A program made the position numbers and the translations under genes. Of a stretch of DNA of 44,938 nucleotides, positions 4,204 through 44,938 are shown piece by piece. This DNA is from Caldifarciminota bacterium. Lineage in GTDB: Bacteria; Hydrothermota; Hydrothermia; LBFQ01. The stretch's first letter is position 1. Each line of letters opens with the position of its first letter. Below the pieces are notes generated by a model, which made no database searches, was not told the origin of the DNA, and was given only the letters and a program-made list of their open reading frames with translations. Where the stretch lies: NCBI GenBank assembly GCA_027002825.1, contig JALWZG010000081.1:1-44938 (forward strand), in the 5' to 3' direction.

Positions 4204-6883
4204 CTTCTAACCTCCTTTTGGTATGTTCTAAACCTATCTCTTTTTCGTAGTCATCTTTCACCACAAAAATACCACTCAACCAACGTTTAAGTCTTCTTTT
4301 ACCCTCATCTTTGAGATTCTCTTCTCCTTCCTCTTCATAAATTTTCCTGTAAAGATGCTCATACTTCCCACCTTCCTCCATCGCTTTCATTTCAATAAAT
4401 CTTAAAATTCCATAACTTACCCACTTCCAAGGCACACTTACGATGTACTTTGACAGAACATCTCGTTTAAAGTGAGCGTAATTTTGATTGGGATCGTTGA
4501 GATCAAAACTTAAAACGGCGTTTATGAAATCTTCAAGGAGGTTCTCCGGTACGGCATCTACCTCGTATATCTCCCTGAATATCCTCTGGGCTTCGGCTTT
4601 CCTCCCGGATACCCATCCCTCGTCCAAAACTGCGAGGGTGTCGTAGAAGGTTCTTATGTATTTACTCTCATCAGCTAGGGCATCAAGAGTGGCGTAGAAG
4701 CCCCTGACTATGGCGTACTTGTCGTACTCGGAGAGGGGGAAGGACAGGGCGTCCTTGCCGTCCTTACGTTTCTTTGGCTTCAAGGTACTTAAAAGCTTAC
4801 TCTCAAAGGTGTCCGTATCGTAGTTGCCCTTTCTGGATTTGTATCCCACCGGTTCGTAGAAGTTCCGCCGTACGAAGTCCGGAGTTATACCCTCTTTAGG
4901 TACCTCTACCTCCCCCCACCTCCACAGCCACGCGAGGGACCACAGCATCAGGTCCTTCTCCTTCTGGTAGGGCGATGTGTGGGCGAGTTTGTTCTCTTTC
5001 TCCTTCACCCACACCCATACGAAGACGTTAGGCCCTGCGGTCAGGTCCAGACCCTCCTCCGGTATATCCATCTCCTCCCCACTGCTCTTATCCCACACTT
5101 TGCCGTCCCTGTAGAAGTACCTCCGCATCACCCTGCCCATCCTCTGGACGAGGGCGTCAAGCGGGGCGAGGTCCGTAAACAGGACGTCCCCATCTATATC
5201 AAGGGACGCCTCAACCACCTGCGTGGCTACGAGGATCTTGCCTTCGTCCTCGTCCTCCGGCTTCGGGTTCCCGAAGGCCTCCATCACCTCCCCCTCCCTC
5301 CTCCTGCGGTCCTCAAGGGTGAATCTGGAGTGGAGGAGATAGACGGGTACCCCCTCGTCCTTCAACCTCTTCTTCAACTCCTTATAGGTCTCCTGGGCGG
5401 AGACGACGGTGTTCCTTATCACTATTACCCTCTTGCCCTCCCTCGCGTGCCTCAAGATCTCCTCAATTTCCCTGCCAAACTCGGGGGCGATTTCCTGCTT
5501 CTTTTCTTCCCCCTTTTCTTTATCGTCCCTCTTGATCTTGATAAACCGCAGCTCTATGCTGTGCTTCCTTATCTGTCTGAAGTCCTCCTCGTTATCCTCG
5601 TAGATGTTGAGTATAGGGATCTCCCCGACCCTGTTTATGACCTCCTCCCTTACGAACTCCGGCAGGGTGGCCGTCATGAGGAGGAAGTTGCCGCCCATCT
5701 TTACGGTGTCCTCAAGGAACTTGACGATTATGGCCGCCGCCCTGGGGTCGTAGGCCTGCACCTCATCAACCGTCAGCCTTGAGTAGGAGATTACGGCGTA
5801 TATCTTCTCAAACGTGGGAGGTTTCAGGGCGTAGGGGAAGAACTGGTCCCCCGTTGAGACCAGGAACGGGTGCGCGAGTTGGCGGGCGAGGGCGTAGGAT
5901 GTGAAGTCTTCGCCCCTCTCAAGGTAGAAGACGTCGGCGTCGGAGTGGAGGAGGCCAAGCTTTTCCGTCCCGAATACGTCCTCCGCCCTTTGGAACATCT
6001 GATTCACGGCAGCCCTCAAGGGGAGGGTGTATATGGCCTTGGAGCCGGCGGACCAGAGGAAGGCGAACTCCGTTTTGCCATAGCCCGTGGGGGCGACGAG
6101 GATGAGGTTCCCGTTCGTTTCCTTCAACTTTGCAAACTGCCAAGCCCCCTCCCCTATCCTCTTCTTTATCGCCCCATGCACCTCATCCCTGTCCCTCGGC
6201 GGTATCTCAACATCGGAGAAGGAAACCCCCTCCTCTTCCTCAACCCAAGAGGCGAAGTGATCCGCCCTCTGGAGTAGGCCACGGATGAGTACGCCCCTCC
6301 TGTTCCTATCCGTTATCTCCCTGTCGGAGATCTGGGACAGGATGCCGTAGGGTGGCGGTGCGATGCGAAATAGATCCAAACCCCTGGCCAGAGATTCGGT
6401 TGTGTTCTCGTTCAACTTATAGGCCTTCCCCATCTCGTTTTTGAGGTTTTCAAGGAGGGCGTCCCTGAAATTCGTATCTTTCAACAGTCTCTTTGCCAGT
6501 TCGTTCAGGGCGCTCCAGCCCTTCCCGATTATCTCCTCAAACTTTTCCCTCCAGTGGTGATACGCAACGGCTACCCTAACGTCATCAGAAAAATCCCCCG
6601 GCACAAAGAGGAGGGAGACGAAGGAGTGGGGTACGTTTAAGGTGAGGTCAAAAGGCTCGTAGCCCGTATTCTTCAGGATGTATATCTGGAAGTAGGGGAG
6701 TACCTTACCCAAGTCGTGATACTCTATAGCCTTCAGGATCTCGTTCTCAATGCCCTCAAAGTCCTCAAGGGGGTTCCGGCCCGTGCGTTTGAGGTGAGAC
6801 TTCAGGGAGAGGAAAGTTTTTTTCACATCTTCGGTGTGTCTCTTGAGGGATACCCCGGTACTTTTGGCGAGGATTTTAGCCAT
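4175..6883 (-). CDS. cas3: Cas3 fused HD nuclease-helicase
   Basis: Cas3 is recruited by Cascade, unwinds target DNA 3'-5' and degrades it. Counting from ATG 6883 (902 residues), the HD nuclease residues are H16, H56-D57 (EYHDLGK), H86 and H109/H110, with D208 in RADHF. Helicase motifs follow: APTGYGKT at 264-271, DEVQ at 373-376, MTATLP near 403 and QRMGRVMR at 580-587. A Cas3 C-terminal domain completes it. An upstream ATG at 6895 would overlap a TATAAT box, so the fifth-codon ATG is preferred, giving a nearly leaderless mRNA. It is the first gene of the cas operon and begins 64 bases after the nosD stop. The last third is AT-rich, continuing into cas8. Confidence 0.95.
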   Translation of the reverse strand: MAKILAKSTGVSLKRHTEDVKKTFLSLKSHLKRTGRNPLEDFEGIENEILKAIEYHDLGKVLPYFQIYILKNTGYEPFDLTLNVPHSFVSLLFVPGDFSDDVRVAVAYHHWREKFEEIIGKGWSALNELAKRLLKDTNFRDALLENLKNEMGKAYKLNENTTESLARGLDLFRIAPPPYGILSQISDREITDRNRRGVLIRGLLQRADHFASWVEEEEGVSFSDVEIPPRDRDEVHGAIKKRIGEGAWQFAKLKETNGNLILVAPTGYGKTEFAFLWSAGSKAIYTLPLRAAVNQMFQRAEDVFGTEKLGLLHSDADVFYLERGEDFTSYALARQLAHPFLVSTGDQFFPYALKPPTFEKIYAVISYSRLTVDEVQAYDPRAAAIIVKFLEDTVKMGGNFLLMTATLPEFVREEVINRVGEIPILNIYEDNEEDFRQIRKHSIELRFIKIKRDDKEKGEEKKQEIAPEFGREIEEILRHAREGKRVIVIRNTVVSAQETYKELKKRLKDEGVPVYLLHSRFTLEDRRRREGEVMEAFGNPKPEDEDEGKILVATQVVEASLDIDGDVLFTDLAPLDALVQRMGRVMRRYFYRDGKVWDKSSGEEMDIPEEGLDLTAGPNVFVWVWVKEKENKLAHTSPYQKEKDLMLWSLAWLWRWGEVEVPKEGITPDFVRRNFYEPVGYKSRKGNYDTDTFESKLLSTLKPKKRKDGKDALSFPLSEYDKYAIVRGFYATLDALADESKYIRTFYDTLAVLDEGWVSGRKAEAQRIFREIYEVDAVPENLLEDFINAVLSFDLNDPNQNYAHFKRDVLSKYIVSVPWKWVSYGILRFIEMKAMEEGGKYEHLYRKIYEEEGEENLKDEGKRRLKRWLSGIFVVKDDYEKEIGLEHTKRRLEDDEDDAFII

Positions 6884-6893
6884 ACAAGGGAGC

Positions 6894-6899
6894 ATTATA
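6894..6899 (-). promoter_or_regulatory. cas operon -10 box
   Basis: TATAAT on the minus strand, 10 bases before ATG 6883. No clear TTGACA sits at the usual distance. It supports a start about 3-4 bases ahead of the cas3 ATG. Confidence 0.6.
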
Positions 6900-6947
6900 A
6901 GGTAGGAGGTTTAATACACTTTGTGGATGAAAACGGAAAAACTTACA

Positions 6948-8210
6948 CTATGAACGGTTTATCTCCACCTTCGGCCTCAGCCTTGGAGGCACTTTCAAAG
7001 GAAACGGCCTCATGGCCGGCCTCTCGTCCTTTATGGCCTCAGGTATAAGCGAGGGCAGGACCTTCTCCGTTAGGTCCATTATCTGGACCAGAGGACTCCT
7101 TATGAGGACCATGAGGGCGGGAACCCGTGTGGAAATGACAGAAAAGAGTTTAACGGGCCTGAAGGGGACATCTCCAACGCCGTCCTTGTCCACGTCGTAC
7201 CCTCTGTACGCACTCCAGTAGTTCCCGTTTATGTCGTTGAAACTGCTGAAGTTGTTCGTAACGAAGTCAAACGTGTTCCCCACGATGTTGTTGCGGGTTA
7301 TCACGTTGTCGGTTGAATTCGCCCACAGCCTTATGGCTATACCGTTTTCCTTCAAAATGTTATCGTGAATTTTATTCCTCACGGAACCCTCAAGATAAAA
7401 GCCGTAGGTGTTGCGGTAGAGGTAATTGCCGTAGATTTCGCTGTCGTAAATCTCCTTGAGAAGGAAGCCGAAGGTCGCCCCTCCCCAGTGGTGTTCAAAC
7501 CTGTTGTACCGCACCGTCACCCTCTTGGAGTACATCACGGCTATACCCACACCGTTGTTCACGAAGGTGTTGTACTCGTACAGGTCGTCGTGGGAGAACA
7601 TGAAGTGTATGCCGTAGCGCACGTTCTTGGTTGAGTGGTTATAACGAAAAACGGAATTCGTCACAAATTCAAGGTATATCCCGTCCCTGTGGCCCTGAAG
7701 GTGGTTGTTCTCCACCAACATGCTGTCGCAGTTCCACATGTGTATGGCGTTTCCCGTAGTCGTCTCCACCTTTGCAAAACCCACGACAACGTTATCCCTC
7801 ACCACACCCCCCTTTGACTTCTCATAGTATATCGCCCAGAAGTTGTCCCAGAACTCATTTCCCTCCACCCTGCAGCCCGTACACTGCGTGATCTTCACGG
7901 CGGCGATATCCCTCGTCATACTCCTGCCGCTGTTCTTAAACACAAAACCCCTTATCAGTACACTGTCCGCTTTTAAAACGTGAAACATCTGATATTTGTA
8001 TTCACCGTCAATCACGGGCTTGTTGATGCCTATGAGAGATATTCCGGACTTTTCAACAACGATCTCCCCCTCGCGGTACACCCCACCCTTCACGAAGATG
8101 GTATCCCCAGATTTTACGTTCTGAAGTGCAGCTTTTATGCTTTTGTAGGTGCATCCATCCTCGCAGACGCTGACGCTTGTAGCAAACAGGAATAAAGCGG
8201 GCGCAGACAT
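6948..8210 (-). CDS. nosD: NosD, periplasmic copper-site maturation protein
   Basis: NosD works with the NosFY ABC transporter to supply sulfur for the CuZ centre of nitrous oxide reductase. The 420-residue protein has a short hydrophobic N-terminus (MSAPALFLFATSVSV) serving as an export signal. A right-handed beta-helix of CASH type follows, with repeated units such as NGVGIAVMYSKRVTVRYNRF and GNYLYRNTYGFYLEG. It starts 6 bases after the nosL stop and ends the minus-strand nos arm. The signal sequence lacks the usual basic residues. The helix repeats and the neighbours nosL and nosZ make the assignment secure. Confidence 0.95.
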   Translation of the reverse strand: MSAPALFLFATSVSVCEDGCTYKSIKAALQNVKSGDTIFVKGGVYREGEIVVEKSGISLIGINKPVIDGEYKYQMFHVLKADSVLIRGFVFKNSGRSMTRDIAAVKITQCTGCRVEGNEFWDNFWAIYYEKSKGGVVRDNVVVGFAKVETTTGNAIHMWNCDSMLVENNHLQGHRDGIYLEFVTNSVFRYNHSTKNVRYGIHFMFSHDDLYEYNTFVNNGVGIAVMYSKRVTVRYNRFEHHWGGATFGFLLKEIYDSEIYGNYLYRNTYGFYLEGSVRNKIHDNILKENGIAIRLWANSTDNVITRNNIVGNTFDFVTNNFSSFNDINGNYWSAYRGYDVDKDGVGDVPFRPVKLFSVISTRVPALMVLIRSPLVQIMDLTEKVLPSLIPEAIKDERPAMRPFPLKVPPRLRPKVEINRS

Positions 8211-8216
8211 GGCGTT

Positions 8217-8705
8217 TCATCTCATCTGCATCTGGTGGTTGTGTCCCTTTTGCATGGGGTTCTGTTTGCGCACCAGGTCTATCACCTTGGACCAGTTGAG
8301 GATTTCCCCTCCGAACTTCCTCAGAAAGGCCTCGGCGTCCTCCGTACTCTCAAAGGCGGCCACGTCGGAGGCCATGGGACTGTGGATCTTGTCGCTCTGT
8401 ATGTATACGGCCTTGGTGGCGTCTATGAGTTTGCCGGGATGGGCGTAGTCCACGACCAGGAAGAAGGCCACGTCCTTCTCGGAGAGTTCGGGATCCTCCC
8501 AGAAGTGGTTTATCATACAGGCGACGTCGTCGTACTTGTAGACCTTGCCCTTCTTGGTGACCAGCTCCGCTCCGAAGCGTTGGTCGGTTATGGTCATCTT
8601 GCACCAGTAGCAGGCGTCCTTTCCGAACTCAATAGGGACGGGCTTTGGTTCGGATACGCAACCGGCAAGGAAGAGAAGTACCGCGAACAGGATAGGCCTA
8701 CCCAT
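8217..8705 (-). CDS. nosL: NosL, outer copper chaperone lipoprotein
   Basis: NosL binds Cu(I) and delivers it to nitrous oxide reductase. I start it at ATG 8705, where AAAGGAGAGGAA precedes the codon, giving 162 residues. The N-terminus MGRPILFAVLLFLAGC is a lipoprotein signal with the lipidated cysteine at 16. The family copper motif CYWCKM follows at about 40. The C-terminal tail HNHQMQMR is rich in His and Met and could hold extra copper. The start overlaps the stop of the preceding membrane-protein gene by 8 bases. Downstream is nosD. Expression depends on readthrough of the terminator at 9293-9319 or on a promoter I could not identify. Confidence 0.95.
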   Translation of the reverse strand: MGRPILFAVLLFLAGCVSEPKPVPIEFGKDACYWCKMTITDQRFGAELVTKKGKVYKYDDVACMINHFWEDPELSEKDVAFFLVVDYAHPGKLIDATKAVYIQSDKIHSPMASDVAAFESTEDAEAFLRKFGGEILNWSKVIDLVRKQNPMQKGHNHQMQMR

Positions 8706-9273
8706 TTCCTCTCCTTTTAACGTAGAGCCAGTCAAGGACGATAACCAAGAAGACTATGACACCGGCCGCTATGGCAAGCCAGCCGCCTACGTCGGGCATG
8801 GACCACACGACGAAGTTAAGGAGGACCTTCTTACCTATGAGGGGAGGGGTGAAGGGGTCTATCTTCAGGGGAGCGTTGGGGTCCAGGTCGTGGCCGTAGT
8901 GGTACAGCCATTTGTAGAAGTCGGCCATGGCTATGATGCCGAAGGCGGCGTAGAGGATGAACCACGTCCAGATGAGCTTACGCTTGTACCAGATAGCGAG
9001 GATGATGGCCGTTATGGCGAAGAACCAGAAGGCTATGGGGAGTATGGTGAACTCGGGTATATGCTCCGGTAGAGGGTGCATCCCAACGTAATGGTTGAGG
9101 TCGTCTATGATCTTCTTCTGCTGGAGGTCTCCCCAACCACCCGTCAGGATGACCAGACGCAGGCCCTCCGGATACTGGGGGGCTATCAGGTCTATGTACC
9201 ACAGCCGCACGAAGTTGACGGCTGCGAGGAGCAGACCTGCCACGAAGAGGAGGATGCGGTTAAGCGTTTTCAT
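8698..9273 (-). CDS. Four-helix membrane protein of the nos locus (NosB-like position)
   Basis: The ATG at 9273 (MKTLNRILLFVAGLLLAAV) is preferred to the longer frame starting at 9330, because the extra 19 residues are encoded by the terminator hairpin region. The 191-residue protein has about four membrane segments: LLFVAGLLLAAVNFV, then one near FTILPIAFWFFAITAIILAI, one near WTWFILYAAFGIIAM, and a last one near WLAIAAGVIVFLVIVL. Clade II nos clusters commonly encode a membrane protein (NosB in epsilonproteobacteria) next to nosZ, so a role in nosZ electron supply or maturation is plausible. I do not see heme or metal motifs. Sequence identity to NosB is not established here. Confidence 0.65.
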   Translation of the reverse strand: MKTLNRILLFVAGLLLAAVNFVRLWYIDLIAPQYPEGLRLVILTGGWGDLQQKKIIDDLNHYVGMHPLPEHIPEFTILPIAFWFFAITAIILAIWYKRKLIWTWFILYAAFGIIAMADFYKWLYHYGHDLDPNAPLKIDPFTPPLIGKKVLLNFVVWSMPDVGGWLAIAAGVIVFLVIVLDWLYVKRRGNG

Positions 9274-9292
9274 GGTTTTTTTCCATCCGGTT

Positions 9293-9319
9293 AAAAAAAG
9301 GGGGGGCTTTAGCCCCCCC
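9293..9319 (-). terminator. Intrinsic terminator after nosZ
   Basis: On the minus strand, GGGGGGGC-TAAA-GCCCCCCC forms a perfect 8-base-pair stem with a 4-base loop (9300-9319), followed by seven T residues (9293-9299). It lies 14 bases after the nosZ stop and before the membrane-protein start, so it divides the nos operon. It is the only clear rho-independent terminator seen in the window. Confidence 0.9.
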
Positions 9320-9333
9320 GACCTTTTCATGCG

Positions 9334-11331
9334 TTAGAGCGCTTTGTCCAGTCCCCACTTGAGGGGTACGTTGGAGCCTTTGGGTGAGACACGGATATAA
9401 CCCTGCATCTCCTGGTGCAGGGCTGAACAGAAGTCCGTGCAGTAGAAGGGATACACGCCGGGCTTCTTGGGCACCCACCTGATGGTGAGGGTCTGACCGG
9501 GCATTATGAGGGCGTTGGGAACCTCGGCGCCGAGTATGGCGAAGCCGTGCGGGATGTCCCAATCCTGCTCTATGTTCGTGACGTGGAAGTAGACGGTATC
9601 GCCGACCCTGATACCCTCTATGTTGTCGGGGTTGAAGTGGGACCTGATGGCCGTCATGTAGATGTGGACGACGTTGCCCTTGCGCTCAACCTTCACCTCG
9701 TTCTCGCTCTTTACGGCGTAAGGATGCTCGTTCTCGTCCAGCTTGTAGATCTTTACGATCTTGTCCTTTATGAGGTCGGCCGCCAAGGCCTGGGCGTAGT
9801 GAGGCTCACCTACGGTCGGGAAGTCAAGGAGCATCTCCATCTTCTCACCGCTGATGTCTATGAGCTGGGCGGAGTGGTTGAGCTCGGGACCGACGGGCAG
9901 GTACCTGTCCTTGGTTATCTTGTTCAGGGCGACGACGTACTTACCCCAAGGCTTACGGGAGTCTCCACCGGGTACCAGGAGGTGACCTATGGAGTAGTAG
10001 ACGGGTATACGGTCCACGACCTCGCACTTCTCGTAGTCGTACTTGATGACCTCGGAGGAGATGAAGCAGGAGGTGTACGCGTAGCCCTTGCCGTCAAACT
10101 CCGTGTGCAGGGGACCGATACAGGCCTTGGGGACCAAGCAGTGGTTCACGGACTCAAACTTCAGCACGGGGATACCCTCTATGACCTTCTCAAACTCCTT
10201 GTTCTCTATGGCCTTCATCATTTTGGAGAAGGAGTGGATGGGTATGTCGGCGGAGAGCTTACCACCACCTATGATGTACTCACCCGTGGGGTCTACGTCC
10301 ACGCCGTGCGGAGACTTGGGCGTGGGCAGGAAGTAGGCCAGACCCTCGCACTCGCTGGGGAATATGACCTTGACCTTGTCTCCGACCTTGGAGAAGGCCA
10401 TGTGCTTCTTTTCATCGTAGTAGTTGTGGTAGTACTTGGCGGGGAACTCGTGATACTTACCCTCGTTTATGCACTGCTCGGCCCTCTTCCAGTTGATGGC
10501 TATGATGTAGTCCTTGTCGTTCTGGGAGGCGTTCTTCTCAAGCAGGGTGTGGGCCTGCTCGGTGTTGTAGGAGGTGAAGAAGCACCAGCCGTGGCTGGGC
10601 CCCTTACCGCAGTGGGCGAGGTCGTAGTCGTATCCGGGGACGAGGATCTGGAAGGCGATCTCCATCCTGTCCTCACCCTCGTAGTTGGGGTCGTTGTTCA
10701 CCTTGATGAAGGTGATGGTTCCCTTGAACTCCTTGGCGTAGTCCTTGATGGGTACGTCCTTGAAGGTACCCTTCTGGATGTCTATGGGTACGGAGAAGCG
10801 GGTGGCGGCCGTAACGTACTCGGTGTTCATGGTTATGAAGGTGGAGGGGTGGTTTCCACCGCTGTTGGGTATCTCAAGGATCTCACGGGTCTCCATGGTG
10901 GCCAGGTCTATACGGGCAACACGAGGGGTGTTGTTGGCGTTGATGAAGATCCAGCGGCCGTCCACCTCACCGTTCGTCTGGGAGAGCTCGGGGTGGTGGG
11001 TGTCATCCCACGGTATGAAGCCGTGGGACGTCATGAGCATCGCCTTCGTCTCCTCCGTGTAGCCGTAGCCGTTGCGCGGGAATACGGAGAACACCGGGAT
11101 GATCTTCAGAAGCCTACCGGAGGGGAGACCGTAGACCATCAACTGGCCGTTGAACCCTCCGGAGAGGAAGGCGTAGAACTCGTCGTACTCGCCGGGGGCC
11201 ACGTAGACCTTCTCGGCCGCGGTGCCGCCGGCCTTCGCCGCTCCCTTCTCCTTAGGCGGGCACCCCATGAAGAGGGCGCCTGCCCCCAGTATTCCCACCA
11301 ATCCCGCAAATACAAGGGTGCGTTTACTCAT
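9334..11331 (-). CDS. nosZ: NosZ, nitrous oxide reductase (clade II, Sec-exported)
   Basis: NosZ reduces N2O to N2. The start is ATG 11331, with AAAAGGAGGTGATT directly upstream, a nearly complete match to the 16S rRNA tail. The 665-residue protein begins MSKRTLVFAGLVGILGAGAL, a Sec-type signal rather than the twin-arginine signal of clade I. Cys24 after FMG could be lipid-modified. The CuZ histidine regions are present (DTHHPE, GGNHPS, SPHGVD, PLHTEF, IGHLLVP, ELNHSAQ, GEPHYAQ). The C-terminal cupredoxin domain has the CuA site CTDFCSALHQEM with C631, C635, H639 and M642. A cytochrome c lipoprotein precedes it and a terminator follows. Confidence 0.98.
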   Translation of the reverse strand: MSKRTLVFAGLVGILGAGALFMGCPPKEKGAAKAGGTAAEKVYVAPGEYDEFYAFLSGGFNGQLMVYGLPSGRLLKIIPVFSVFPRNGYGYTEETKAMLMTSHGFIPWDDTHHPELSQTNGEVDGRWIFINANNTPRVARIDLATMETREILEIPNSGGNHPSTFITMNTEYVTAATRFSVPIDIQKGTFKDVPIKDYAKEFKGTITFIKVNNDPNYEGEDRMEIAFQILVPGYDYDLAHCGKGPSHGWCFFTSYNTEQAHTLLEKNASQNDKDYIIAINWKRAEQCINEGKYHEFPAKYYHNYYDEKKHMAFSKVGDKVKVIFPSECEGLAYFLPTPKSPHGVDVDPTGEYIIGGGKLSADIPIHSFSKMMKAIENKEFEKVIEGIPVLKFESVNHCLVPKACIGPLHTEFDGKGYAYTSCFISSEVIKYDYEKCEVVDRIPVYYSIGHLLVPGGDSRKPWGKYVVALNKITKDRYLPVGPELNHSAQLIDISGEKMEMLLDFPTVGEPHYAQALAADLIKDKIVKIYKLDENEHPYAVKSENEVKVERKGNVVHIYMTAIRSHFNPDNIEGIRVGDTVYFHVTNIEQDWDIPHGFAILGAEVPNALIMPGQTLTIRWVPKKPGVYPFYCTDFCSALHQEMQGYIRVSPKGSNVPLKWGLDKAL

Positions 11332-11343
11332 AATCACCTCCTT

Positions 11344-11844: not shown

Positions 11845-11850
11845 ATTATA
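11845..11850 (-). promoter_or_regulatory. nos minus-arm -10 box
   Basis: TATAAT on the minus strand ends 9 bases before the cytochrome ATG at 11835. It implies a leaderless transcript for cytochrome c-nosZ. Confidence 0.65.
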
Positions 11851-11871
11851 CTATGGCAAAAAAACTTTTTA

Positions 11872-11887: not shown

Positions 11888-11932
11888 AACCGTTCTCAGG
11901 AATGTTCCCCAAAACATCCCGTCTTACCATTA

Positions 11933-11938
11933 TAGAAT
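11933..11938 (+). promoter_or_regulatory. -10 box of the lipoprotein gene in the nos plus arm
   Basis: TAGAAT ends 6 bases before ATG 11945, which would place the transcription start at or next to the ATG. Confidence 0.55.
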
Positions 11939-12391: not shown

Positions 12392-12400
12392 CGGCACCTT

Positions 12401-12406
12401 TAGAAT
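12401..12406 (+). promoter_or_regulatory. nosF -10 box
   Basis: TAGAAT, 6 bases before TTG 12413 and 15 bases before an in-frame GTG at 12422. It would let nosFY be transcribed separately from the lipoprotein gene. Confidence 0.5.
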
Positions 12407-13907: not shown

Positions 13908-15617
13908 TCACAGCTCTTCCATATCCCTGAACCTTCCGAGCTTGTGGATACGTATGGGGTTTTTCAGCTTCTCAAGGGCGGATATCTCAAGCTGGCGCAC
14001 CCTCTCACGTGTTAGCCCCAGCTCCTTTCCCGTCTCCTCAAGTGTTCTGGGCTTTTTCCCGTCAAGTCCGTACCTCAGCTCTATGACCTTCCTCTCACGG
14101 GGTGTCAGCATGGAAAGGGCCTCTTCCAGTTTTTCCCTTAGGGTTAACAGCTTCACCTCTTCCTCCGTCGGCAGTCTCCTCGTATCCGAGAGTATCTCAC
14201 CGAAGGAGGCGTCCTCGTCCTTACCTATGGGCTTGTCCATGCTTATGGGTTCTTTTGCCACGCTTATCGCCCTCTCCACCTTCTCTATGGGCATCTCAAG
14301 GTACTCGGCTATCTCCTCTATGGACGGCTCCCTACCCTTCTCCTGAAGCAGAGCCTTCTGGGCCTTGTTTATCTTGGTTATGGTCTCTATCATGTGGATG
14401 GGGATGCGGATGGTGCGGGAGTGGTCCGCCACCGCCCTCGTTATGGCCTGCCTTATCCACCACGTGGCGTAGGTGGAAAACTTGAAGCCCCTCTTCCAGT
14501 CGTACTTGTCTATGGCCTTCAGGAGGCCGAGGTTCCCCTCCTGTATTAGGTCTCCGAAGTCAAGGCCGCGGTTCATGTACCTCTTGGCCTCGCTTATCAC
14601 CAACCTGACGTTCCCCTCGGCGAGCTTCTCCCTCGCCCACTGGTAGCGGCGGTAGATCTTTACGAGTTTTTCGGCCATGGGTTTCGCCGTATCGTAGCTT
14701 TCACCCAGCTCCTCCTCAAGACGCTTTATGCGACTCCTTATGCTCTCCTCAAGGGCCCTGTACTCGTCTACAAAGCTGACAGCACCGATGTCCTCAAACA
14801 TCTTCCTCTCGTTCTCTATCCTCTCCAGCTCCTCGTAAAGACCCTTGAGCTTCTGAACCTTTTTGTAGTACTCCTGGTATATCTCAACTATGCGGGTGAA
14901 GATGGGTCCCATGTCAAGGACCTTGTCCACGATCTCCTTAAAGGCTATCTCGGCCTCCCGCAGATCCTTCTCCGAGAGGCTCTCCCTCTCCAAAAAGTAC
15001 CTCCTCGCGAGCGGCCAGCGCGACAGGAGGTACTCTATCCCCCTCGCCAACCTCTTCCTCTCCCTCTGGTTTTTTACGCGGTTGGTCCAGTAGCCGGGGT
15101 CCACCTGAAAGATCTCCTCGGCCTGTATCAGGCCCTTTTGGGCCATCTGAACCAAACGCATAAACCTTGATAGACCGTAAAACGTGGATATCAGGTTGCG
15201 TGTCAGCTCGGTGCGGGACTCGTCTATGGTCTTTGCCAGCTCAAGCTCCTCCTGACGGGAGAGAAGCCTCATCTCCGCCACCTGTTTGAGGTATATCCTG
15301 ACGGGATCGTCCCGGTACTCGGACGTCAGCTTGTCCTCCTCCGCCTGAAGGATGTTGTCTATGTCCTGTTTCCTCTTGCTCTTCTTCCGTTTCGTCGTGT
15401 GTTCCGTCAGGTCCTTGTCAAACTCCACGCCCTTTTCCATCAGGGCTATGACGATCTGCTCCAAAAGCTCGGCGTTCTGGACGTACTCCGCAGGAAGCCT
15501 TTTCAGGAGCTCGTCAAAGGTGTAAGCCCCCTTTTTTTCTTTGGCCTCCTGCACTATCCTCTCTATTATCTCAAGGATGCTCTCTCTACGCTCCTTCATC
15601 TTTGCATCCTTCATCAA
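13908..15617 (-). CDS. rpoD: RpoD, primary sigma factor
   Basis: This is the housekeeping sigma factor that directs RNA polymerase to -10/-35 promoters. The 569-residue protein has a region 1.1-like N-terminus (DELLKRLPAEYV), region 1.2 (DPVRIYLKQVAEMRLLSRQE) and a long non-conserved insert. Region 2 follows (GLDFGDLIQEGNLGLLKAID, FSTYATWWIRQAI), then region 3 and region 4 (TPRERKVIELRYGL, LGLTRERVRQLE). Region 2.4 is the part that should read the TANAAT boxes noted here. AGGAGG lies upstream of the ATG, and the gene overlaps dnaG by 4 bases. It is the last gene of recA-PUR-dnaG-rpoD. Confidence 0.97.
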   Translation of the reverse strand: MMKDAKMKERRESILEIIERIVQEAKEKKGAYTFDELLKRLPAEYVQNAELLEQIVIALMEKGVEFDKDLTEHTTKRKKSKRKQDIDNILQAEEDKLTSEYRDDPVRIYLKQVAEMRLLSRQEELELAKTIDESRTELTRNLISTFYGLSRFMRLVQMAQKGLIQAEEIFQVDPGYWTNRVKNQRERKRLARGIEYLLSRWPLARRYFLERESLSEKDLREAEIAFKEIVDKVLDMGPIFTRIVEIYQEYYKKVQKLKGLYEELERIENERKMFEDIGAVSFVDEYRALEESIRSRIKRLEEELGESYDTAKPMAEKLVKIYRRYQWAREKLAEGNVRLVISEAKRYMNRGLDFGDLIQEGNLGLLKAIDKYDWKRGFKFSTYATWWIRQAITRAVADHSRTIRIPIHMIETITKINKAQKALLQEKGREPSIEEIAEYLEMPIEKVERAISVAKEPISMDKPIGKDEDASFGEILSDTRRLPTEEEVKLLTLREKLEEALSMLTPRERKVIELRYGLDGKKPRTLEETGKELGLTRERVRQLEISALEKLKNPIRIHKLGRFRDMEEL

Positions 15618-18587: not shown

Positions 18588-18593
18588 ATTCTA
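18588..18593 (-). promoter_or_regulatory. recA operon -10 box
   Basis: TAGAAT on the minus strand, 23 bases before the recA ATG. The leader holds AGGAGG. Back to back with the gatA box at 18634. Confidence 0.55.
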
Positions 18594-18633
18594 CAGCAGA
18601 ACTCAAACCGGAAGGCGGAGGGTGTTTCGCGGG

Positions 18634-18639
18634 TATAAT
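18634..18639 (+). promoter_or_regulatory. gatA -10 box
   Basis: TATAAT, 12 bases before ATG 18652. No Shine-Dalgarno sequence in the short leader. Confidence 0.6.
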
Positions 18640-18651: not shown

Positions 18652-19911
18652 ATGGACGCGTTGAACGCCGTTTTGACCCTCAACGAATCGCCGGAGGAGG
18701 GAAAGGGGAGGTTGAGCGGTGTTGAAGTGGCCGTAAAGGACAACATAACGACAAAGGGTCTGAGAACCACGGCCGGATCGCGCATGCTTGAGAACTACGT
18801 TCCCCCCTTTGACGCCACGGTTGTGAGGAGGCTAAAGGATGCGGGTGCGGTCATAAGGGCAAAAACCAACCTTGACGAGTTCGGGATGGGTTCAACGGGT
18901 GAAAACTCGGCCTTCGGTCCCACCAAAAACCCCCACGACCCCTCCCTCGTTCCGGGCGGTTCCTCCTCCGGCTCGGCGGCCGTTGTGGGAGGTGGAATAT
19001 TCCCCCTCGCCTTGGGCAGCGATACAGGTGGATCGATAAGGCTTCCCGCGGCCTTTTGCAACATCTGGGGGTTTAAACCCACGTACGGCAGGGTCTCCCG
19101 CTACGGCCTCATAGCCTTCGCCTCCTCCCTTGACGTCATAGGCCCAATGGCGGGGGATGTGGGTCTGATAGCCGACGTCATGGAGGTGATCTCCGGTGAG
19201 GATCCGAGGGATGCCACAACACTTGACAGGCCACCCTTTTCCACGGGGAAAGCCCATGAGTTTTCACGGAAGGGTGGGTTCAAGGTTGGGGTTGTGAGGG
19301 GACATCTGGAGATGGTTTCGGAGGCCGTAAGGGAGAGGTTTGAACCCTTTGTGGACCTCCTGGCAAAGGCCGGGAACGACATAGTGGACGTCAACCTGAA
19401 CAGCACGAGGTACGCACTCGCCGCATATTACGTGATAGCAACGGCCGAGGCCTCTTCCAACCTCGCCAGATACGACGGTGTGAGGTACGGTACGAGCGTA
19501 AGGGGTGAGAACCTGTTTGAGACCTATGTCGCGACGAGGTCCCTCTTTGGGGATGAGGTGAAGAGGCGTATACTCATGGGAACTTTTGTCCTCTCCCACG
19601 GGTATTACGAGGCCTATTACCTCAGGGCCTTGAGGGCCAGAAGGATAATATACGAGGAGGTCCTCTCGTGGTTTTCTGATGTGGACGTCGTGATAACACC
19701 CACCGCCCCGGTCCTGCCCCCGAAGCTGGGGGCGGGGTTCTCCCCAGTTGACTACTACAGGTTGGACACCTTGACCGTCCCCTTCAGCCTCGCGGGTGTT
19801 CCCGTCCTGAACGTTCCCCTTGGTGGGTTCGTCGGGGTACAAGTGGTTGCCCCCTTTGGAGAAGACGAGCGCGCCGTGGGGTTCGGGTTTTATGTTTCAG
19901 AGCTCCTATAA
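18652..19911 (+). CDS. gatA: GatA, Glu-tRNA(Gln)/Asp-tRNA(Asn) amidotransferase subunit A (N-terminally short)
   Basis: GatA releases ammonia from glutamine for amidation of mischarged tRNA. The 419-residue protein has the amidase triad K29 (AVKDN), S104 (PGGSSSGS) and S128 (GSDTGGS). In Staphylococcus aureus GatA these are K79, S154 and S178, so this protein keeps exact spacing but lacks 50 residues at the start. An in-frame TAA sits four codons before the ATG, and TATAAT lies 12 bases upstream, so the short form is probably real. The end overlaps the M50 protease gene by 20 bases. gatB and gatC are not in the window. Confidence 0.93.
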   Translation: MDALNAVLTLNESPEEGKGRLSGVEVAVKDNITTKGLRTTAGSRMLENYVPPFDATVVRRLKDAGAVIRAKTNLDEFGMGSTGENSAFGPTKNPHDPSLVPGGSSSGSAAVVGGGIFPLALGSDTGGSIRLPAAFCNIWGFKPTYGRVSRYGLIAFASSLDVIGPMAGDVGLIADVMEVISGEDPRDATTLDRPPFSTGKAHEFSRKGGFKVGVVRGHLEMVSEAVRERFEPFVDLLAKAGNDIVDVNLNSTRYALAAYYVIATAEASSNLARYDGVRYGTSVRGENLFETYVATRSLFGDEVKRRILMGTFVLSHGYYEAYYLRALRARRIIYEEVLSWFSDVDVVITPTAPVLPPKLGAGFSPVDYYRLDTLTVPFSLAGVPVLNVPLGGFVGVQVVAPFGEDERAVGFGFYVSELL

Positions 19912-20958: not shown

Positions 20959-20971
20959 CGGTTTTCCACCC

Positions 20972-20977
20972 TATAAT
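20972..20977 (+). promoter_or_regulatory. glmL-hutI -10 box
   Basis: TATAAT, 9 bases before ATG 20987. Confidence 0.6.
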
Positions 20978-22816: not shown

Positions 22817-23955
22817 CCGGTGGGAGGACGGTTGTAAAAGGTCTCAGGGCGGTGTTCAACGGGAGGGAGGTTTTGGAGGGGGTTGACGTGGCCGTAGAGG
22901 ACGGCAGGGTGGTGGAGGTCGGCAGGGATCTGGAGGGGGATAGGAGTGTTATCCTGCGGGATAAGGTTCTCTACCCCGCCTTCGTGGACGCCCACACCCA
23001 CCTCATTTACCAGGGTGACCGTTTAAACGAGTTCAGGATGAAGGTGAGGGGTGCATCCTACCTCTCCATTCTCGCCGCCGGTGGTGGAATACGTTCAACG
23101 GTCAGGGCGACGTCCGGGGCCTCGGACGAGGAGATAGTATCCTCAACCCTGAAGAGGGTTGAGAGGTTGAGGGAAAAGGGAGTGGGTGCGGTTGAGATAA
23201 AAACGGGCTACGGCATATCTTACGATCAGGAGATCAGGCTTTTGAGACTGATAGGCGAGGTTTCCAAGAGGACGGACGTGGAGGTTGTGCCAACCCTCCT
23301 CTTCCACGTCCCACCCGAAGGGGAAGACGTAAAGGACTACCTCCGGGGGTTCTTTGAGAGGTACGAGGAGTACGCCCACCTCTTGAAGTTCGTGGACGTC
23401 TTCGCCGACGAGGGGGCCTTCGGACCGGAGGAGACGGAGATGATCCTCTCCTTCTACCGCGGCAAGGGGGTGCCCTGCAGGCTTCACGCCGACGAGTTCA
23501 GACCCTTTGCGTCCGATCTCGCCGCTAAGTACGGGTGCGTCTCCGCCGATCACCTCCTCAGGACACCCGATGAAAACGTGGGCAAACTCGCACGGGCGGG
23601 AGTCATAGCCGTCCTCTGCCCGACGACCGGCTTTTTCCTCGGAGGGGATAAGCCACCGATTGAAAGCCTGATCTCACGCGGCGTAAAGGTAGCCCTCTCC
23701 TCGGATCACAACCCCGGAACCGCCCCCTTTTTGAACCCCTTCCTGACCGTCCTACTCGGCGTCTTCCATTACGGTATACCACCCGAAGAGGCCTTTAAGG
23801 CCCATACCCTTCATGCCGCCGATTCCCTCCTCCTTTACGATATGGGTAGGATAGAACCGGGGGCGAGGGCGGTGTTCTTCAGCCTGGACCTCACGCCGGA
23901 TGAGGTGGCCTACTGGGGCGCCGTAGACGTGTCCCCCCAACTCGTCCGACTTTAG
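22813..23955 (+). CDS. hutI: HutI, imidazolonepropionase
   Basis: HutI hydrolyses imidazolone propionate to N-formimino-glutamate, the third step of histidine breakdown. The 380-residue amidohydrolase has the metal site H61-T-H63 in VDAHTHLIYQ. The family loop RGASYLSILAAGGGIRSTV is present. A third histidine lies in LLFHVPPEG, a fourth region in RLHADEF, and the aspartate in LSSDHNPGTAP. It overlaps glmL by ATGA. Its TAG stop forms the first bases of the next promoter. hutH, hutU and the last step are not in the window, so the pathway is only partly shown. Confidence 0.94.
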   Translation: MTGGRTVVKGLRAVFNGREVLEGVDVAVEDGRVVEVGRDLEGDRSVILRDKVLYPAFVDAHTHLIYQGDRLNEFRMKVRGASYLSILAAGGGIRSTVRATSGASDEEIVSSTLKRVERLREKGVGAVEIKTGYGISYDQEIRLLRLIGEVSKRTDVEVVPTLLFHVPPEGEDVKDYLRGFFERYEEYAHLLKFVDVFADEGAFGPEETEMILSFYRGKGVPCRLHADEFRPFASDLAAKYGCVSADHLLRTPDENVGKLARAGVIAVLCPTTGFFLGGDKPPIESLISRGVKVALSSDHNPGTAPFLNPFLTVLLGVFHYGIPPEEAFKAHTLHAADSLLLYDMGRIEPGARAVFFSLDLTPDEVAYWGAVDVSPQLVRL

Positions 23956-23958
23956 AAT
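23953..23958 (+). promoter_or_regulatory. rfaE1 -10 box overlapping the hutI stop codon
   Basis: TAGAAT whose TAG is the hutI stop, 10 bases before ATG 23969. Confidence 0.5.
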
Positions 23959-25967: not shown

Positions 25968-25973
25968 ATTTTA
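25968..25973 (-). promoter_or_regulatory. ftsW-like gene -10 box
   Basis: TAAAAT on the minus strand, 6 bases before TTG 25961. It mirrors the plus box at 26008, forming an inverted GGATTTTA/TAAAATCC pair. Confidence 0.5.
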
Positions 25974-26007
25974 CGGAAGTTTTGACCTAAACCTTCGTGT
26001 TCACTCT

Positions 26008-26013
26008 TAAAAT
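26008..26013 (+). promoter_or_regulatory. -10 box of the 26 kb secreted protein
   Basis: TAAAAT, 8 bases before ATG 26022. ATG 26016 is only 2 bases away and is therefore not favoured. Confidence 0.5.
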
Positions 26014-32409: not shown

Positions 32410-32415
32410 ATTGTA
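32410..32415 (-). promoter_or_regulatory. -10 box of the barrel/TPR operon
   Basis: TACAAT on the minus strand, 14 bases before ATG 32395. Weaker case than the other boxes. Confidence 0.4.
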
Positions 32416-32448
32416 CAGCTGCGGCCGAAACAGTTCAAGCGGACGGGT

Positions 32449-34793: not shown

Positions 34794-34799
34794 ATTTTA
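34794..34799 (-). promoter_or_regulatory. -10 box of the 34 kb T9SS protein
   Basis: TAAAAT on the minus strand, 8 bases before ATG 34785. Confidence 0.5.
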
Positions 34800-34819
34800 A
34801 GGCTGCCCACCACGGGATT

Positions 34820-37254: not shown

Positions 37255-37260
37255 ATTATA
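37255..37260 (-). promoter_or_regulatory. rplO-secY-adk -10 box
   Basis: TATAAT on the minus strand, 9 bases before the rplO ATG at 37245. Confidence 0.6.
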
Positions 37261-37277
37261 CGGGTGAAGTTGCCGCC

Positions 37278-38425: not shown

Positions 38426-38431
38426 ATTTTA
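38426..38431 (-). promoter_or_regulatory. tolC-like gene -10 box
   Basis: TAAAAT on the minus strand, 5 bases before GTG 38420. A +1 start codon is implied. Confidence 0.4.
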
Positions 38432-38439
38432 ACCGTGAT

Positions 38440-40289: not shown

Positions 40290-40295
40290 ATTCTA
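40290..40295 (-). promoter_or_regulatory. sppA -10 box overlapping the memo stop codon
   Basis: TAGAAT on the minus strand whose TAG is the stop of the upstream MEMO gene, 6 bases before ATG 40283. Confidence 0.5.
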
Positions 40296-41096
40296 AGCCA
40301 GAGGGGTTCGGGGAACGTCATAGCGCAAGGCCGCGTACCCCACAACGGAACGGGGGTCCCCCGCCGTATCCGCGCTTGTGCCGTACGCCAAAAGCGTGGG
40401 CTTCCAGCCCTTTTCACGGGCCATCGCGGCGAGGGTGGACCACGGGTACCTGCCGCAGGCCTCCCGCTCAAGCAGGGTTTCCGCGTCGTTTTCAAGGGCA
40501 ACCCGGAGAGTCTCACCGTCCAGGCGACGGGCGACGGGGTCGGGATGGTAATGGGAAAGGTCGGTGGACACCACTATCAGGTCCCCTTCCCTCAGGACAC
40601 CCAAAAGCCTTCTGGCCACCAACAGGGGGTTGACTATGCCGAAGGCGAGGGGGACGAGGTTGAAGTCGCCGAGGACAACCTGAAGGAAGGGGAGCTCCAC
40701 CTCAAGGGAGTGTTCGGGGAGGAGGGGATCGGCCACGTCCGTGAAGGGATGCCCAAGGGATAGGAGCTCCTCAACCCTCCCCACGTCCACGGCGACCTCG
40801 CCGAGAGGGGTTTCCCACACATCAAACGGCCCCGTGCTGACCCCGTTGAAGGCCACAAAGTGGGCCGGGCCCAAAAGGAAAACGGTGGGTGTCCTTCCCC
40901 TCGCCGGCATCAGGGCTTTAAAGGCGTAGGCCGCAAACGGCCCGGAGTACACATAACCCGCGTGCGGGGATACCACTGCCTTCGGTGGGATTTCGGCCAC
41001 CACTTCTGCCCCTTCCAGCAGGTCCAAAACCGTCCTTTTCAAAACCTCGGGATCCTCGGGATAGAACGTCCCGGCAACGGCAGGTTTTCGCGTCAT
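40293..41096 (-). CDS. MEMO-family protein (AmmeMemoRadiSam system protein B)
   Basis: MEMO proteins resemble class III extradiol dioxygenases and are often found with AMMECR1 and a radical SAM protein, a system of unsettled function. I start it at ATG 41096 (MTRKPAVAGTFYPEDPEVL), which overlaps the amrS stop as ATGA. The 267-residue protein has VVSPHAGYVYSGPFAAYAF, LLGPAHF, EHSLEVELPFLQ and STDLSHYHP, the conserved metal-site-like histidines. The 41153 start would add residues from inside amrS. Confidence 0.93.
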   Translation of the reverse strand: MTRKPAVAGTFYPEDPEVLKRTVLDLLEGAEVVAEIPPKAVVSPHAGYVYSGPFAAYAFKALMPARGRTPTVFLLGPAHFVAFNGVSTGPFDVWETPLGEVAVDVGRVEELLSLGHPFTDVADPLLPEHSLEVELPFLQVVLGDFNLVPLAFGIVNPLLVARRLLGVLREGDLIVVSTDLSHYHPDPVARRLDGETLRVALENDAETLLEREACGRYPWSTLAAMAREKGWKPTLLAYGTSADTAGDPRSVVGYAALRYDVPRTPLA

Positions 41097-42160: not shown

Positions 42161-42166
42161 ATTTTA
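42161..42166 (-). promoter_or_regulatory. amrS-memo -10 box
   Basis: TAAAAT on the minus strand, 9 bases before ATG 42151. Confidence 0.55.
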
Positions 42167-42180
42167 AAGCCGTGGGGGTA

Positions 42181-43593: not shown

Positions 43594-43599
43594 ATTTTA
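43594..43599 (-). promoter_or_regulatory. Transglutaminase gene -10 box
   Basis: TAAAAT on the minus strand, 6 bases before ATG 43587. Confidence 0.5.
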
Positions 43600-43600
43600 A

Positions 43601-43610
43601 GGTTGCAACC
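43601..43610. promoter_or_regulatory. Palindrome beside the transglutaminase promoter
   Basis: GGTTGCAACC, a perfect 10-base palindrome 1 base upstream of the minus -10 box. Possible operator. Confidence 0.35.
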
Positions 43611-43620: not shown

Positions 43621-43634
43621 CCGGTGCGCACCGG
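43621..43634. promoter_or_regulatory. 14-base palindrome beside the accA promoter
   Basis: CCGGTGCGCACCGG is a perfect palindrome lying 3 bases before the accA -10 box, in the spacer and -35 area. A dimeric repressor bound here would block accA. No known operator was matched. Confidence 0.45.
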
Positions 43635-43637
43635 CGT

Positions 43638-43643
43638 TAAAAT
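43638..43643 (+). promoter_or_regulatory. accA -10 box
   Basis: TAAAAT, 10 bases before ATG 43654. Confidence 0.5.
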
Positions 43644-43653
43644 CCCTCCCCAA

Positions 43654-44613
43654 ATGAGGTACCTTGACTTTGAAAAACCCATAGGTCTTCTGGAGGAGGA
43701 GATTGAGAGGCTCAAGAAGAGGTACGAGGAGGAGCAGAACGAGGAGATTCTCCAGAGGATAAAATCCCTGGAAAAGGAGGTGAAGAGGCTGAAACACGAC
43801 ATCTTCTCCAACCTGACACGGTGGCAGATCGTCCAGCTCGCCCGTCATCCGGAAAGGCCCAAACCCCTTGACCTCATACCCTACATCTGCGAGGACTTTG
43901 TGGAGCTCCACGGGGACAGGCTTTTCGGAGACGATTCGGCCGTGGTAGCGGGTCTTGCCAAGGTGGAGGAGTACGGTGTTGTGCTTGTAGGTATACAGAA
44001 GGGAAGGGATACGGAGGAGAACCTCAAAAGGAACTTCGGCATGGCCCACCCAGAAGGGTACAGAAAGGCCATAAGGCTGTTCAACCTCGCCGACAAGCTC
44101 AAACTTCCGGTTTTAACCCTTGTCGATACGCCTGGGGCTTACCCCGGCATAGGGGCGGAGGAGAGGGGGCAGTTTTCCGCCATCGCCTACAGCATAAAGA
44201 GAATGCTTGAGCTCAGCGTTCCGAGCGTGGCCTTCATAACGGGTGAGGGGGGAAGCGGTGGGGCCCTGGCGCTCGCGGCGGCCGACAGGGTTTACATGTT
44301 GGAGTACTCCATATACTCGGTGATCTCACCGGAGGGGGCGGCCAGCATACTGTTCAAGGATGCGGGTAAGAACAAGGAAGCGGCCGAGGCCCTGAAGATA
44401 ACCGCCCAGGACCTTTACGAATTCGGCGTGATTGACGGGATAATAAAGGAACCCCTTGGAGGGGCGCACAGGGATCCCAAGACCGTGGCCCTCAGGATCA
44501 AGAGGACGTTCCTGAAGGCCTTAAAGGAGCTGAAACGGAAGTCGGCCTTCACACTTCAGAGACAAAGGTTTAAGAAATACGTCTCCATGGGTAGGTGGTT
44601 GGAGACACGCTGA
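43654..44613 (+). CDS. accA: AccA, acetyl-CoA carboxylase carboxyltransferase alpha subunit
   Basis: AccA with AccD moves the carboxyl group from biotin to acetyl-CoA, the first step of fatty-acid synthesis. The 319-residue protein has the typical coiled N-terminus (YLDFEKPIGLLEEEIERLKK) and LARHPERPKPLDLI. Crotonase-fold motifs are ELHGDRLFGDDSAVVAGLA, VDTPGAYPGIGAEERGQ and ITGEGGSGGALALAAADRVY. SPEGAASILFKDA follows. A longer in-frame start at 43189 is rejected because it crosses the opposing gene and the promoter. accD is not in the window. Confidence 0.97.
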   Translation: MRYLDFEKPIGLLEEEIERLKKRYEEEQNEEILQRIKSLEKEVKRLKHDIFSNLTRWQIVQLARHPERPKPLDLIPYICEDFVELHGDRLFGDDSAVVAGLAKVEEYGVVLVGIQKGRDTEENLKRNFGMAHPEGYRKAIRLFNLADKLKLPVLTLVDTPGAYPGIGAEERGQFSAIAYSIKRMLELSVPSVAFITGEGGSGGALALAAADRVYMLEYSIYSVISPEGAASILFKDAGKNKEAAEALKITAQDLYEFGVIDGIIKEPLGGAHRDPKTVALRIKRTFLKALKELKRKSAFTLQRQRFKKYVSMGRWLETR

Positions 44614-44632
44614 TCGGCCGAACGCTCAGGGG

Positions 44633-44638
44633 TAGAAT
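44633..44638 (+). promoter_or_regulatory. -10 box of the inositol-monophosphatase-family gene
   Basis: TAGAAT, 7 bases before ATG 44646. Confidence 0.5.
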
Positions 44639-44645
44639 CACGGCT

Positions 44646-44938
44646 ATGGATTTCAAGGAGCTGGGGGATACCGTAAAGGGAGTGATCCCGGTGGCCGAAG
44701 GGGCTGGGAGAATACTTCTGGACCACTTCGGAAGGCGGCTGAGGGTTGAGAGGAAGGGTGTGCGGGACATAGTCACGGATGCGGATATAGCGGCGGAGGA
44801 GTACATAAAGGTTGAACTACAAAGGAGGTTTCCCGGAATCCCTTTCTTCGGTGAGGGGACGGGAGGGGCGGAGGGGGGGACGAGGTGGGTGGTGGATCCG
44901 CTGGACGGCACAAAGAACTTCGCCAGGGGGCTGGAGGT
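44646..44938 (+). CDS. Inositol-monophosphatase-family protein (partial, runs off the right edge)
   Basis: Mg-dependent sugar-phosphate phosphatases of this family include SuhB, FBPase IV and PAP phosphatase. The visible 97 residues begin MDFKELGDTVKGVIPVAEGA. They hold DIVTDAD (41-47), E70 in FFGEG, and WVVDPLDGTKNF (81-92), where D84 and D87 bind metal. The C-terminal half is missing, so the exact substrate cannot be named. Translated from the sequence directly, with an ATG 7 bases after a -10 box. Confidence 0.9.
   Translation, partial: MDFKELGDTVKGVIPVAEGAGRILLDHFGRRLRVERKGVRDIVTDADIAAEEYIKVELQRRFPGIPFFGEGTGGAEGGTRWVVDPLDGTKNFARGLE

Follow-up and report, generated by a model that had tools for sequence, protein, structure and literature searches.

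Contig JALWZG010000081.1 of the Caldifarciminota bacterium assembly GCA_027002825.1, analyzed here from position 1 to position 44,938 (the window), carries 18 genes named in a first-pass annotation as beginning apparent units and as having a TANAAT box right before the start codon. The exact box was found at all 18, with a gap (the number of bases between the end of the box and the start codon) of 5–14, and 15 of the 18 fall within the 6–10 bases given there as usual. The annotation described the −10 box correctly and overlooked a fixed C at −18 (numbering that places the box at −12 to −7), which is present at all 18 named promoters and at recA. That the genes begin units is certain, by strand change, for seven of them (cytochrome c, lipoprotein, gatA, ftsW-like, 26022, transglutaminase and accA); the remaining 11 have a same-strand gene 9–64 bases upstream. 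The remark that almost none has a usable GGAGG applies to 17 of the 18, which have none between box and start, and fails at gene 43587, where GGAGG lies within the six bases separating box and ATG. The gene recA is the leadered exception, with AGGAGG in the leader between box and ATG. Family (profile) searches, run on 17 window proteins, backed some of the assigned gene names: cas3, nosD, nosZ, rpoD, recA, gatA, the GlmL-like gene, secY, an outer-membrane efflux (TolC-like) gene, an S49 peptidase and a radical-SAM gene.

Table 1. Boxed promoters of the window and the rpoD gene (SD, Shine-Dalgarno sequence)
Feature	Span	Strand	TANAAT box	C at −18	Start codon	Gap
cas3 promoter	6894..6905	-	TATAAT 6894-6899	6905	ATG 6883	10
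Cytochrome c gene promoter	11845..11856	-	TATAAT 11845-11850	11856	ATG 11835	9
Lipoprotein gene promoter	11927..11938	+	TAGAAT 11933-11938	11927	ATG 11945	6
nosF promoter	12395..12406	+	TAGAAT 12401-12406	12395	TTG 12413	6
rpoD (sigma factor, presumed reader of the boxes)	13908..15614	-	none; SD AAAGGAGG at own start			
recA promoter	18588..18599	-	TAGAAT 18588-18593	18599	ATG 18564	23
gatA promoter	18628..18639	+	TATAAT 18634-18639	18628	ATG 18652	12
glmL-like gene promoter	20966..20977	+	TATAAT 20972-20977	20966	ATG 20987	9
rfaE1 promoter	23947..23958	+	TAGAAT 23953-23958	23947	ATG 23969	10
ftsW-like gene promoter	25968..25979	-	TAAAAT 25968-25973	25979	TTG 25961	6
Gene 26022 promoter	26002..26013	+	TAAAAT 26008-26013	26002	ATG 26022	8
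Gene 32395 promoter	32410..32421	-	TACAAT 32410-32415	32421	ATG	14
Gene 34785 promoter	34794..34805	-	TAAAAT 34794-34799	34805		8
rplO promoter	37255..37266	-	TATAAT 37255-37260	37266	ATG 37245	9
tolC-like gene promoter	38426..38437	-	TAAAAT 38426-38431	38437	GTG 38420	5
sppA (S49 peptidase) promoter	40290..40301	-	TAGAAT 40290-40295	40301		6
amrS (radical SAM) promoter	42161..42172	-	TAAAAT 42161-42166	42172		9
Transglutaminase gene promoter	43594..43605	-	TAAAAT 43594-43599	43605	ATG 43587	6
accA promoter	43632..43643	+	TAAAAT 43638-43643	43632		10
Phosphatase gene promoter	44627..44638	+	TAGAAT 44633-44638	44627		7

The source genome (1,720,098 bases) is fragmented into 113 contigs. A sample of 388,936 bases, some 23% of its length, was formed from the window and 20 further stretches and holds 365 genes that have a usable start. 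Genes were called by coding score, blind to upstream signals, and a gene was counted as a divergent first gene when its upstream neighbor lies on the opposite strand (n = 118). Across this 389-kb sample TANAAT was enriched far above shuffled sequence, as the first-pass annotation had predicted for unit-opening genes. The box at a gap of 5–12 precedes 89 of the 118 divergent first genes and all four contig-edge genes; for genes with a same-strand gene upstream the counts are 5/18 at distances above 100 bases, 20/40 at 30–100 bases and 41/185 below 30 bases, which brings the share over all sampled genes to 159/365. The box thus prefers first genes, while the proposed split between first and internal genes is blurred by the boxed, closely packed downstream genes. 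Internal ATGs served as a control and had the box in 4 of 3409 cases (2/2130 in frame, 2/1279 out of frame); Fisher tests were run on the excess in first genes against both the closely packed genes and the internal ATGs. Shuffled upstream regions gave 0.9% and the reverse-complement motif 2/118, and the reversed hexamer TAANAT reached 33/118 because TAAAAT satisfies both readings. Genome-wide, TANAAT-N7-ATG occurs 119 times and the reversed pattern nine times.

Mismatches to TANAAT among the 118 first genes are bimodal, with none in 90, one in 6 and two to four in 22, so that the box is stricter than we would expect of a −10 box. The gap ranges from 5 to 13 with a sharp peak, its mode being 8 for ATG starts and 6 for TTG starts. 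When alternative in-frame starts were scanned with a scoring matrix trained on the same sample, 96 of the 118 first genes fitted (86 at the called start and 10 elsewhere), and in nine others the nearest strong site lies 13–250 bases upstream, four of these directly behind a tRNA gene; reversed segments gave 1 and 3 instead of 96 and 9. The statement that recA alone has a leader consequently holds within the window and not in the sample. Box-like sequences were also noticed in similar repeats (TAGAATGGAGG or TAAAATCAAAGG; L097 2139, 3585, 4340, 6865 and 7614; L096 18231 / L097 10925), at least one of them within coding sequence, in what looks like a paralogous gene array.

The 20 stretches contain 10 tRNA genes and one tmRNA gene, and the window contains none. 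All nine stable-RNA genes that are solitary or open a cluster (8 tRNA, 1 tmRNA) are preceded by the motif, each with C at −18, at 9–13 bases from the mature RNA 5' end (21 for the Pro tRNA and 27 for the tmRNA). Because it precedes nine of nine such genes, the box is, on this evidence, a promoter element and not a ribosome signal. SD sequences (scored as at least GGAG, GAGG or AGGA) were found at 3 of 89 boxed divergent genes (about 8% in shuffled sequence) and at 85 of 144 unboxed genes less than 30 bases behind a same-strand neighbor (about 28% in shuffled sequence), in line with the annotation's statement that many operon-internal genes carry one. The anti-SD is intact: the 16S 3' end keeps CACCTCC in eight of eight full-length genes from eight relatives, and a search of the source genome for its own 16S gene found none. 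A side feature of these ends is TGGAACACCTCC instead of TGGATCACCTCC in four of five own-family copies (L273, L274, L275 and L276); the exception (L269) comes from a genome listed with 7% contamination, and the usual base is found in three sister-family copies. Loss of a translation factor as the cause is unsupported, IF3 being present above its cut-off. An S1-like protein is present at 490 bits, below the rpsA model cut-off of 577, as it is in all 40 genomes of the class.

When 160 boxed starts were aligned on the box, C occupied −18 in 89% (1.27 bits), with T-rich sequence just upstream; two relatives of the same family have it at 91% of 35 and 91% of 23 sites. The −18 C is, as far as these alignments go, a mark of the genome's own family. 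The annotation's observation of no steady TTGACA at −35 was confirmed, there being no conservation at that position across the 160 promoters. A match of at least 4/6 to TTGACA with a spacer of 15–19 was found in 23% of the source genome's boxed starts against 18% after shuffling and in 16% against 18% in the two family relatives; the sister family gave 37% and 26% against shuffled values of 27% and 21%, respectively. Boxed genes of the class outside the order keep a −35, the match being present in 62% against 22% (39 boxed starts, four genomes). Nine boxed promoters of G050, from another family of the class, have T at 100%, T at 89% and G at 67% of the TTG positions. An extended −10 TG is likewise missing, with T at 9% at −15 and G at 17% at −14 in the 160 starts; the commonest base at both positions is C (56% and 45%). 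Genome-wide counts of TTG-N20-TANAAT against its control broadly fit this: they are 114/7 (G043), 152/24 (G022) and 244–313/72–116 (f10) in other families of the class, whereas three own-genus genomes have 18/13, 53/35 and 52/40. Genus g11 of family f7 has little excess (230/161, 304/262 and 355/294), so the contrast between order and class is not uniform. Because the TTG-N20-TANAAT picture is uneven, the −35 element is best described as seemingly weak or absent in the order, its loss not being proven.

Transcription is expected to start 6–9 bases after a −10 box. At position −1 relative to the start codon a purine is found in 24% of boxed and 51% of unboxed starts, and in 35 ATG genes with a gap of 8 the last two positions before the codon are purines in only 17% and 6%. 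The preferred pyrimidine-purine (YR) start falls exactly on the codon's first base in 88 of 160 boxed genes, where shuffling of the bases between box and codon gives 54; it lies two bases inside the codon in 27, and three have no site. Taken with the boxes at tRNA and tmRNA genes, this purine avoidance and YR bias make leaderless transcription of unit-first genes, which the first-pass annotation had proposed as the rule, the best reading of where transcripts would begin. Orthologs in a sister species (G038) are consistent with it: of 17 pairs, both members are boxed in 6 and neither in 10, while 1 is discordant, the last being a start-call effect with a box just upstream of the ATG neighboring the called start. 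The gaps of the six doubly boxed pairs are equal in four (11, 9, 6, 9) and unequal in two (9/12, 7/9). The glmL-like ortholog in the sister species keeps the box and a gap of 9 despite a different arrangement of upstream neighbors.

The annotation had left open how far the pattern extends in the lineage; the box reaches beyond the source genome to its order. With TANAAT counted at gaps of 4–13 before divergent genes (internal-ATG background 0–3.4%), boxed genes number 90/118 in the source genome, 16/24 in the same genus, 12/20 in the same family and, elsewhere in the order, 24/34 in one genome and 8/16 in another, the latter giving 23/54 when sampled more widely. Values for the rest of the class are 1/12, 0/4, 8/16, 3/12 and 7/20, and for the rest of the phylum 0/4, 3/10 and 1/12 (the samples of G043 and G116 have only four divergent genes each). 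The longer pattern TTC-N5-TANAAT, which includes the −18 C, occurs 293 times against 31 for its control in the source genome, and 218/29, 275/74, 303/44, 230/55 and 315/46 times in the five other species of the genus. The sister genus has 187/131 and 570/232, and the sister family 249/347 and 431/557 (genus g3) and 81/26 and 75/23 (genus g4). Across 135 genomes outside the order, ratios judged by eye are mostly about 0.7:1 to 2:1. In the sister family the conserved core is different, with C at −15 (86% of 36 and 61% of 46 sites in two genomes) followed by TT and no C at −18. The two families of the order (L241, L237 and L238 versus the own-family sequences) thus have a common β' insertion, described below, and a differently placed C, at −15 and −18, respectively.

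The RpoD proteins of the own family score 332–337 bits against their model, with up to 374 elsewhere in the class. The idea that a changed sigma factor alone is responsible is unsupported: the −35 helix and region 3.0 (PIHMIETI) look ordinary (the G022 RpoD was left out of this sequence comparison). The difference in the β' subunit is more telling: before the zipper strand, the stretch from the conserved WS to GEV is longer by 13 residues. This insertion was found in 10 of 10 order genomes read (of 12; G033 gave no match and G036 is fragmentary), in 0 of 26 other genomes of the class (2 of 28 unread) and in 0 of 29 others of the phylum (0/55 in all); for the 30 further phylum genomes, 14 were read by a motif script and 15 by eye with a looser motif, G116 being unreadable. 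G102 has a different, shorter insertion nearby, and of five solved-structure alignments at the insertion site four show a gap and the fifth begins after it. The zipper reads NYKT in seven of seven own-family genomes and NYRT in the rest. A Thermus open-complex structure, in the part of its description covered, places the zipper residues Tyr34 and Arg35 at the −17 phosphate; these are taken to be the YR of NYRT. The co-occurrence of insertion and promoter type is suggestive. G077 and other f22 genomes outside the order also have an excess of TTC-N5-TANAAT, and the β' of G077 is without the insertion, possibly an independent promoter change.

We consider it highly probable that these features reflect one dominant promoter type combined with a leaderless start at most unit-opening genes. 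The promoter would be a single dominant housekeeping type, combining a near-invariant TANAAT with a T-preceded C at −18 and lacking a clear −35, and its box would be read by RpoD. At most genes that open a unit the polymerase would start at the first base of the start codon, and the ribosome would then have to initiate from the 5' end of the leaderless mRNA; downstream genes of the unit would mostly rely on SD initiation with the intact anti-SD. The −18 C may be read or supported by the β' zipper region with the order's 13-residue insertion. The DNA itself shows the motif and where it sits, its surplus at first genes and its presence at tRNA genes, the avoidance of purines before the start codon and the survival of the motif in the sister species; the starting point of the transcripts, the reading of the box by RpoD and the role of the β' zipper region at −18 are deduced. 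A bolder version is tentative and falls somewhat short of an even chance: that the order largely gave up the −35 element; that in the own family a −18 base read by a remodeled β' zipper (13-residue insertion, R to K) replaced it as the near-universal housekeeping promoter, the sister family having C at −15; and that a promoter set directly on the start codon made leaderless translation the default way of opening an operon.

The preferred combination of a dominant promoter and leaderless starts has to be set against other explanations of the box. Chance, AT-rich intergenic composition or miscalled starts can be given hardly any credence, even though the starts were set from coding score alone and a different in-frame start gives a better fit for 10 of 118: controls stay at 0.1–0.9%, the gap peak is sharp, and in six of the seven G038 pairs boxed in the source genome the ortholog alignment starts at residue 1 of both proteins. 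A translation-initiation signal, such as an AU-rich site for the ribosome or S1, would suit the SD-like distance of the box from starts, its standing in for the SD there and the presence of an S1-like protein, yet we regard it as very improbable, given the motif with its −18 C before nine of nine first-in-cluster tRNA and tmRNA genes, the preference of the box for first genes and the recA box lying upstream of a separate SD. It is fairly improbable that the box is a −10 element from which transcription begins a few bases before the codon, leaving leaders of 1–7 bases. The gap mode of 8 at ATG starts would allow this, as would the 42 of 160 boxed genes whose preferred YR site lies 1–7 bases upstream of the codon; purines are, however, avoided exactly there, and the coincidence with the first base of the codon is well above the shuffled expectation. 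Those 42 genes also weigh against leaderless starts as such, together with several other points: transcript starts are deduced from sequence and not from mapped 5' ends; the gaps (mode 8, range 5–13) are longer than the 6–7 of Deinococcus; 13 of the 118 first genes have no scoring site; the boxes at 41 of 185 closely packed genes leave no clean separation of first from internal genes; and among 12 ortholog pairs with the family's other genus (G037) both members are boxed in only 1 and neither in 8, with 3 discordant pairs, of which two have misaligned starts.

For the upstream part of the promoter, the alternative is that binding of the −18 C with its T-run falls to a distinct global factor, CarD- or RbpA-like proteins being examples, and not to the zipper or sigma region 3. 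The ordinary sigma region 3.0 and −35 helix would agree with such a factor, as would the contact of the published zipper residues, in the passages covered, with the backbone phosphate and not the base. We judge it unlikely, though the most serious of the alternatives, as about 90% of boxed starts and every one of the nine stable-RNA promoters have the element at the described zipper/sigma3 position, and an order-specific β' insertion adjoins the zipper (no search aimed at such a factor was made). That backbone contact also tells against reading of the −18 base by the zipper, and other findings weigh against the preferred promoter type. RpoD keeps the −35 helix TRERVRQ, and some excess of TTG-N20-TANAAT is left in the source genome (46/18) and in genus g4 (57/22 and 66/33). 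Genus g4 has its excess of TTC-N5-TANAAT though its aligned promoters are without the −18 C, and outside the order the pattern is in excess in some genomes, such as G077 (131/37), G072 (67/26), G043 (19/4) and G113 (23/3). To judge from the tree, the insertion probably arose once, so its link to the promoter amounts to a single correlation.

In bacteria, initiation on leaderless mRNAs is commonly regarded as secondary; for the first genes of this genome it appears to be the principal route, and there are strong indications of the same across the order. This is relevant to the annotation of start codons in the genomes of such uncultured lineages, and in the own genus TTC-N5-TANAAT is a practical marker by which promoters and genuine start codons can be picked out of raw sequence. 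The promoter is also a natural test of whether the zipper of the core polymerase can recognize sequence specifically in the absence of a −35 element. If the bolder version were true, it would be, as far as we know, the first genome-wide case in which the core polymerase, not sigma, gives the upstream promoter contact.

Two further features of the window concern its genes. The GatA-like protein (18652-19911, + strand) aligns with its family model from model position 54 onward and has no earlier in-frame start, and thus seems to be short of about 40 N-terminal residues. On the − strand (4175-11337), a Sec-type nosZ and nosD adjoin the CRISPR cas3 gene, and the organism is a potential N2O reducer. 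Among the 80 loci kept from a scan of named genomes, RecA is 54–60% identical to proteins from mixed phyla, and a secretion-tail domain may hint at an uncultured FCB-like phylum.

The system works like leaderless expression from a −10 element adjoining the open reading frame (ORF) and not like a classical −35/−10 promoter. The likeness to Deinococcus suggested in the first-pass annotation is borne out by the enrichment of a −10 box near starts and SD use at other genes; with Deinococcus-Thermus it shares, according to the passages covered, a −10-like box before the start codon, a ribosome-binding motif at other genes and a promoter without −35 (PMC12340547, PMC3160421). In those sources the −10 motif adjoins about 30% of Deinococcus-Thermus ORFs on average (PMC12340547), and D. 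radiodurans ranks highest among 953 surveyed bacterial genomes with 46.1% (PMC3160421); a review, likewise in part, puts around 60% of D. deserti genes in the leaderless type. The all-gene share found here (159/365) is inside this range and not above it. What stands out in comparison is the strictness of the box, the share of first genes (no first-gene figure for Deinococcus was sought) and the −18 C. The Deinococcus-Thermus motif is given as TANNNT (mostly TACACT) at 6–7 bases before the ORF, in contrast to the strict TANAAT with a gap mode of 8 here, and the passages covered mention no −18 element. Actinobacteria are similar in having TANNNT at a gap of 4–13 (mostly 6–7) before 9 of 30 divergent genes (139 kb of named loci), and differ in that TANAAT precedes none of the 30 and that a −18 C is missing from 17 aligned sites. 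With classical sigma-70 promoters the −10 hexamer is shared; boxed promoters of the own order are without −35 conservation, although some members keep a remnant excess of it genome-wide. Among the titles listed in literature searches on leaderless genes in uncultured lineages and on zipper contacts, none concerned such a lineage (its name was not used as a query beyond a guess). A survey of 260 prokaryotes for base biases ahead of their non-SD genes (PMC5397173) reports, in the part covered, averages over such genes that are neither aligned on a box nor tied to one fixed base. The Z-element at −17/−18, contacted by the β' zipper and sigma region 3.0 (PMC5101437, PMC4593229), has the same position as the conserved C; in the portions covered it is a supporting backbone contact, whereas here a near-invariant base is found on most promoters. 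Leaderless genes are already known, and what is new here is the strict promoter type with the −18 C.

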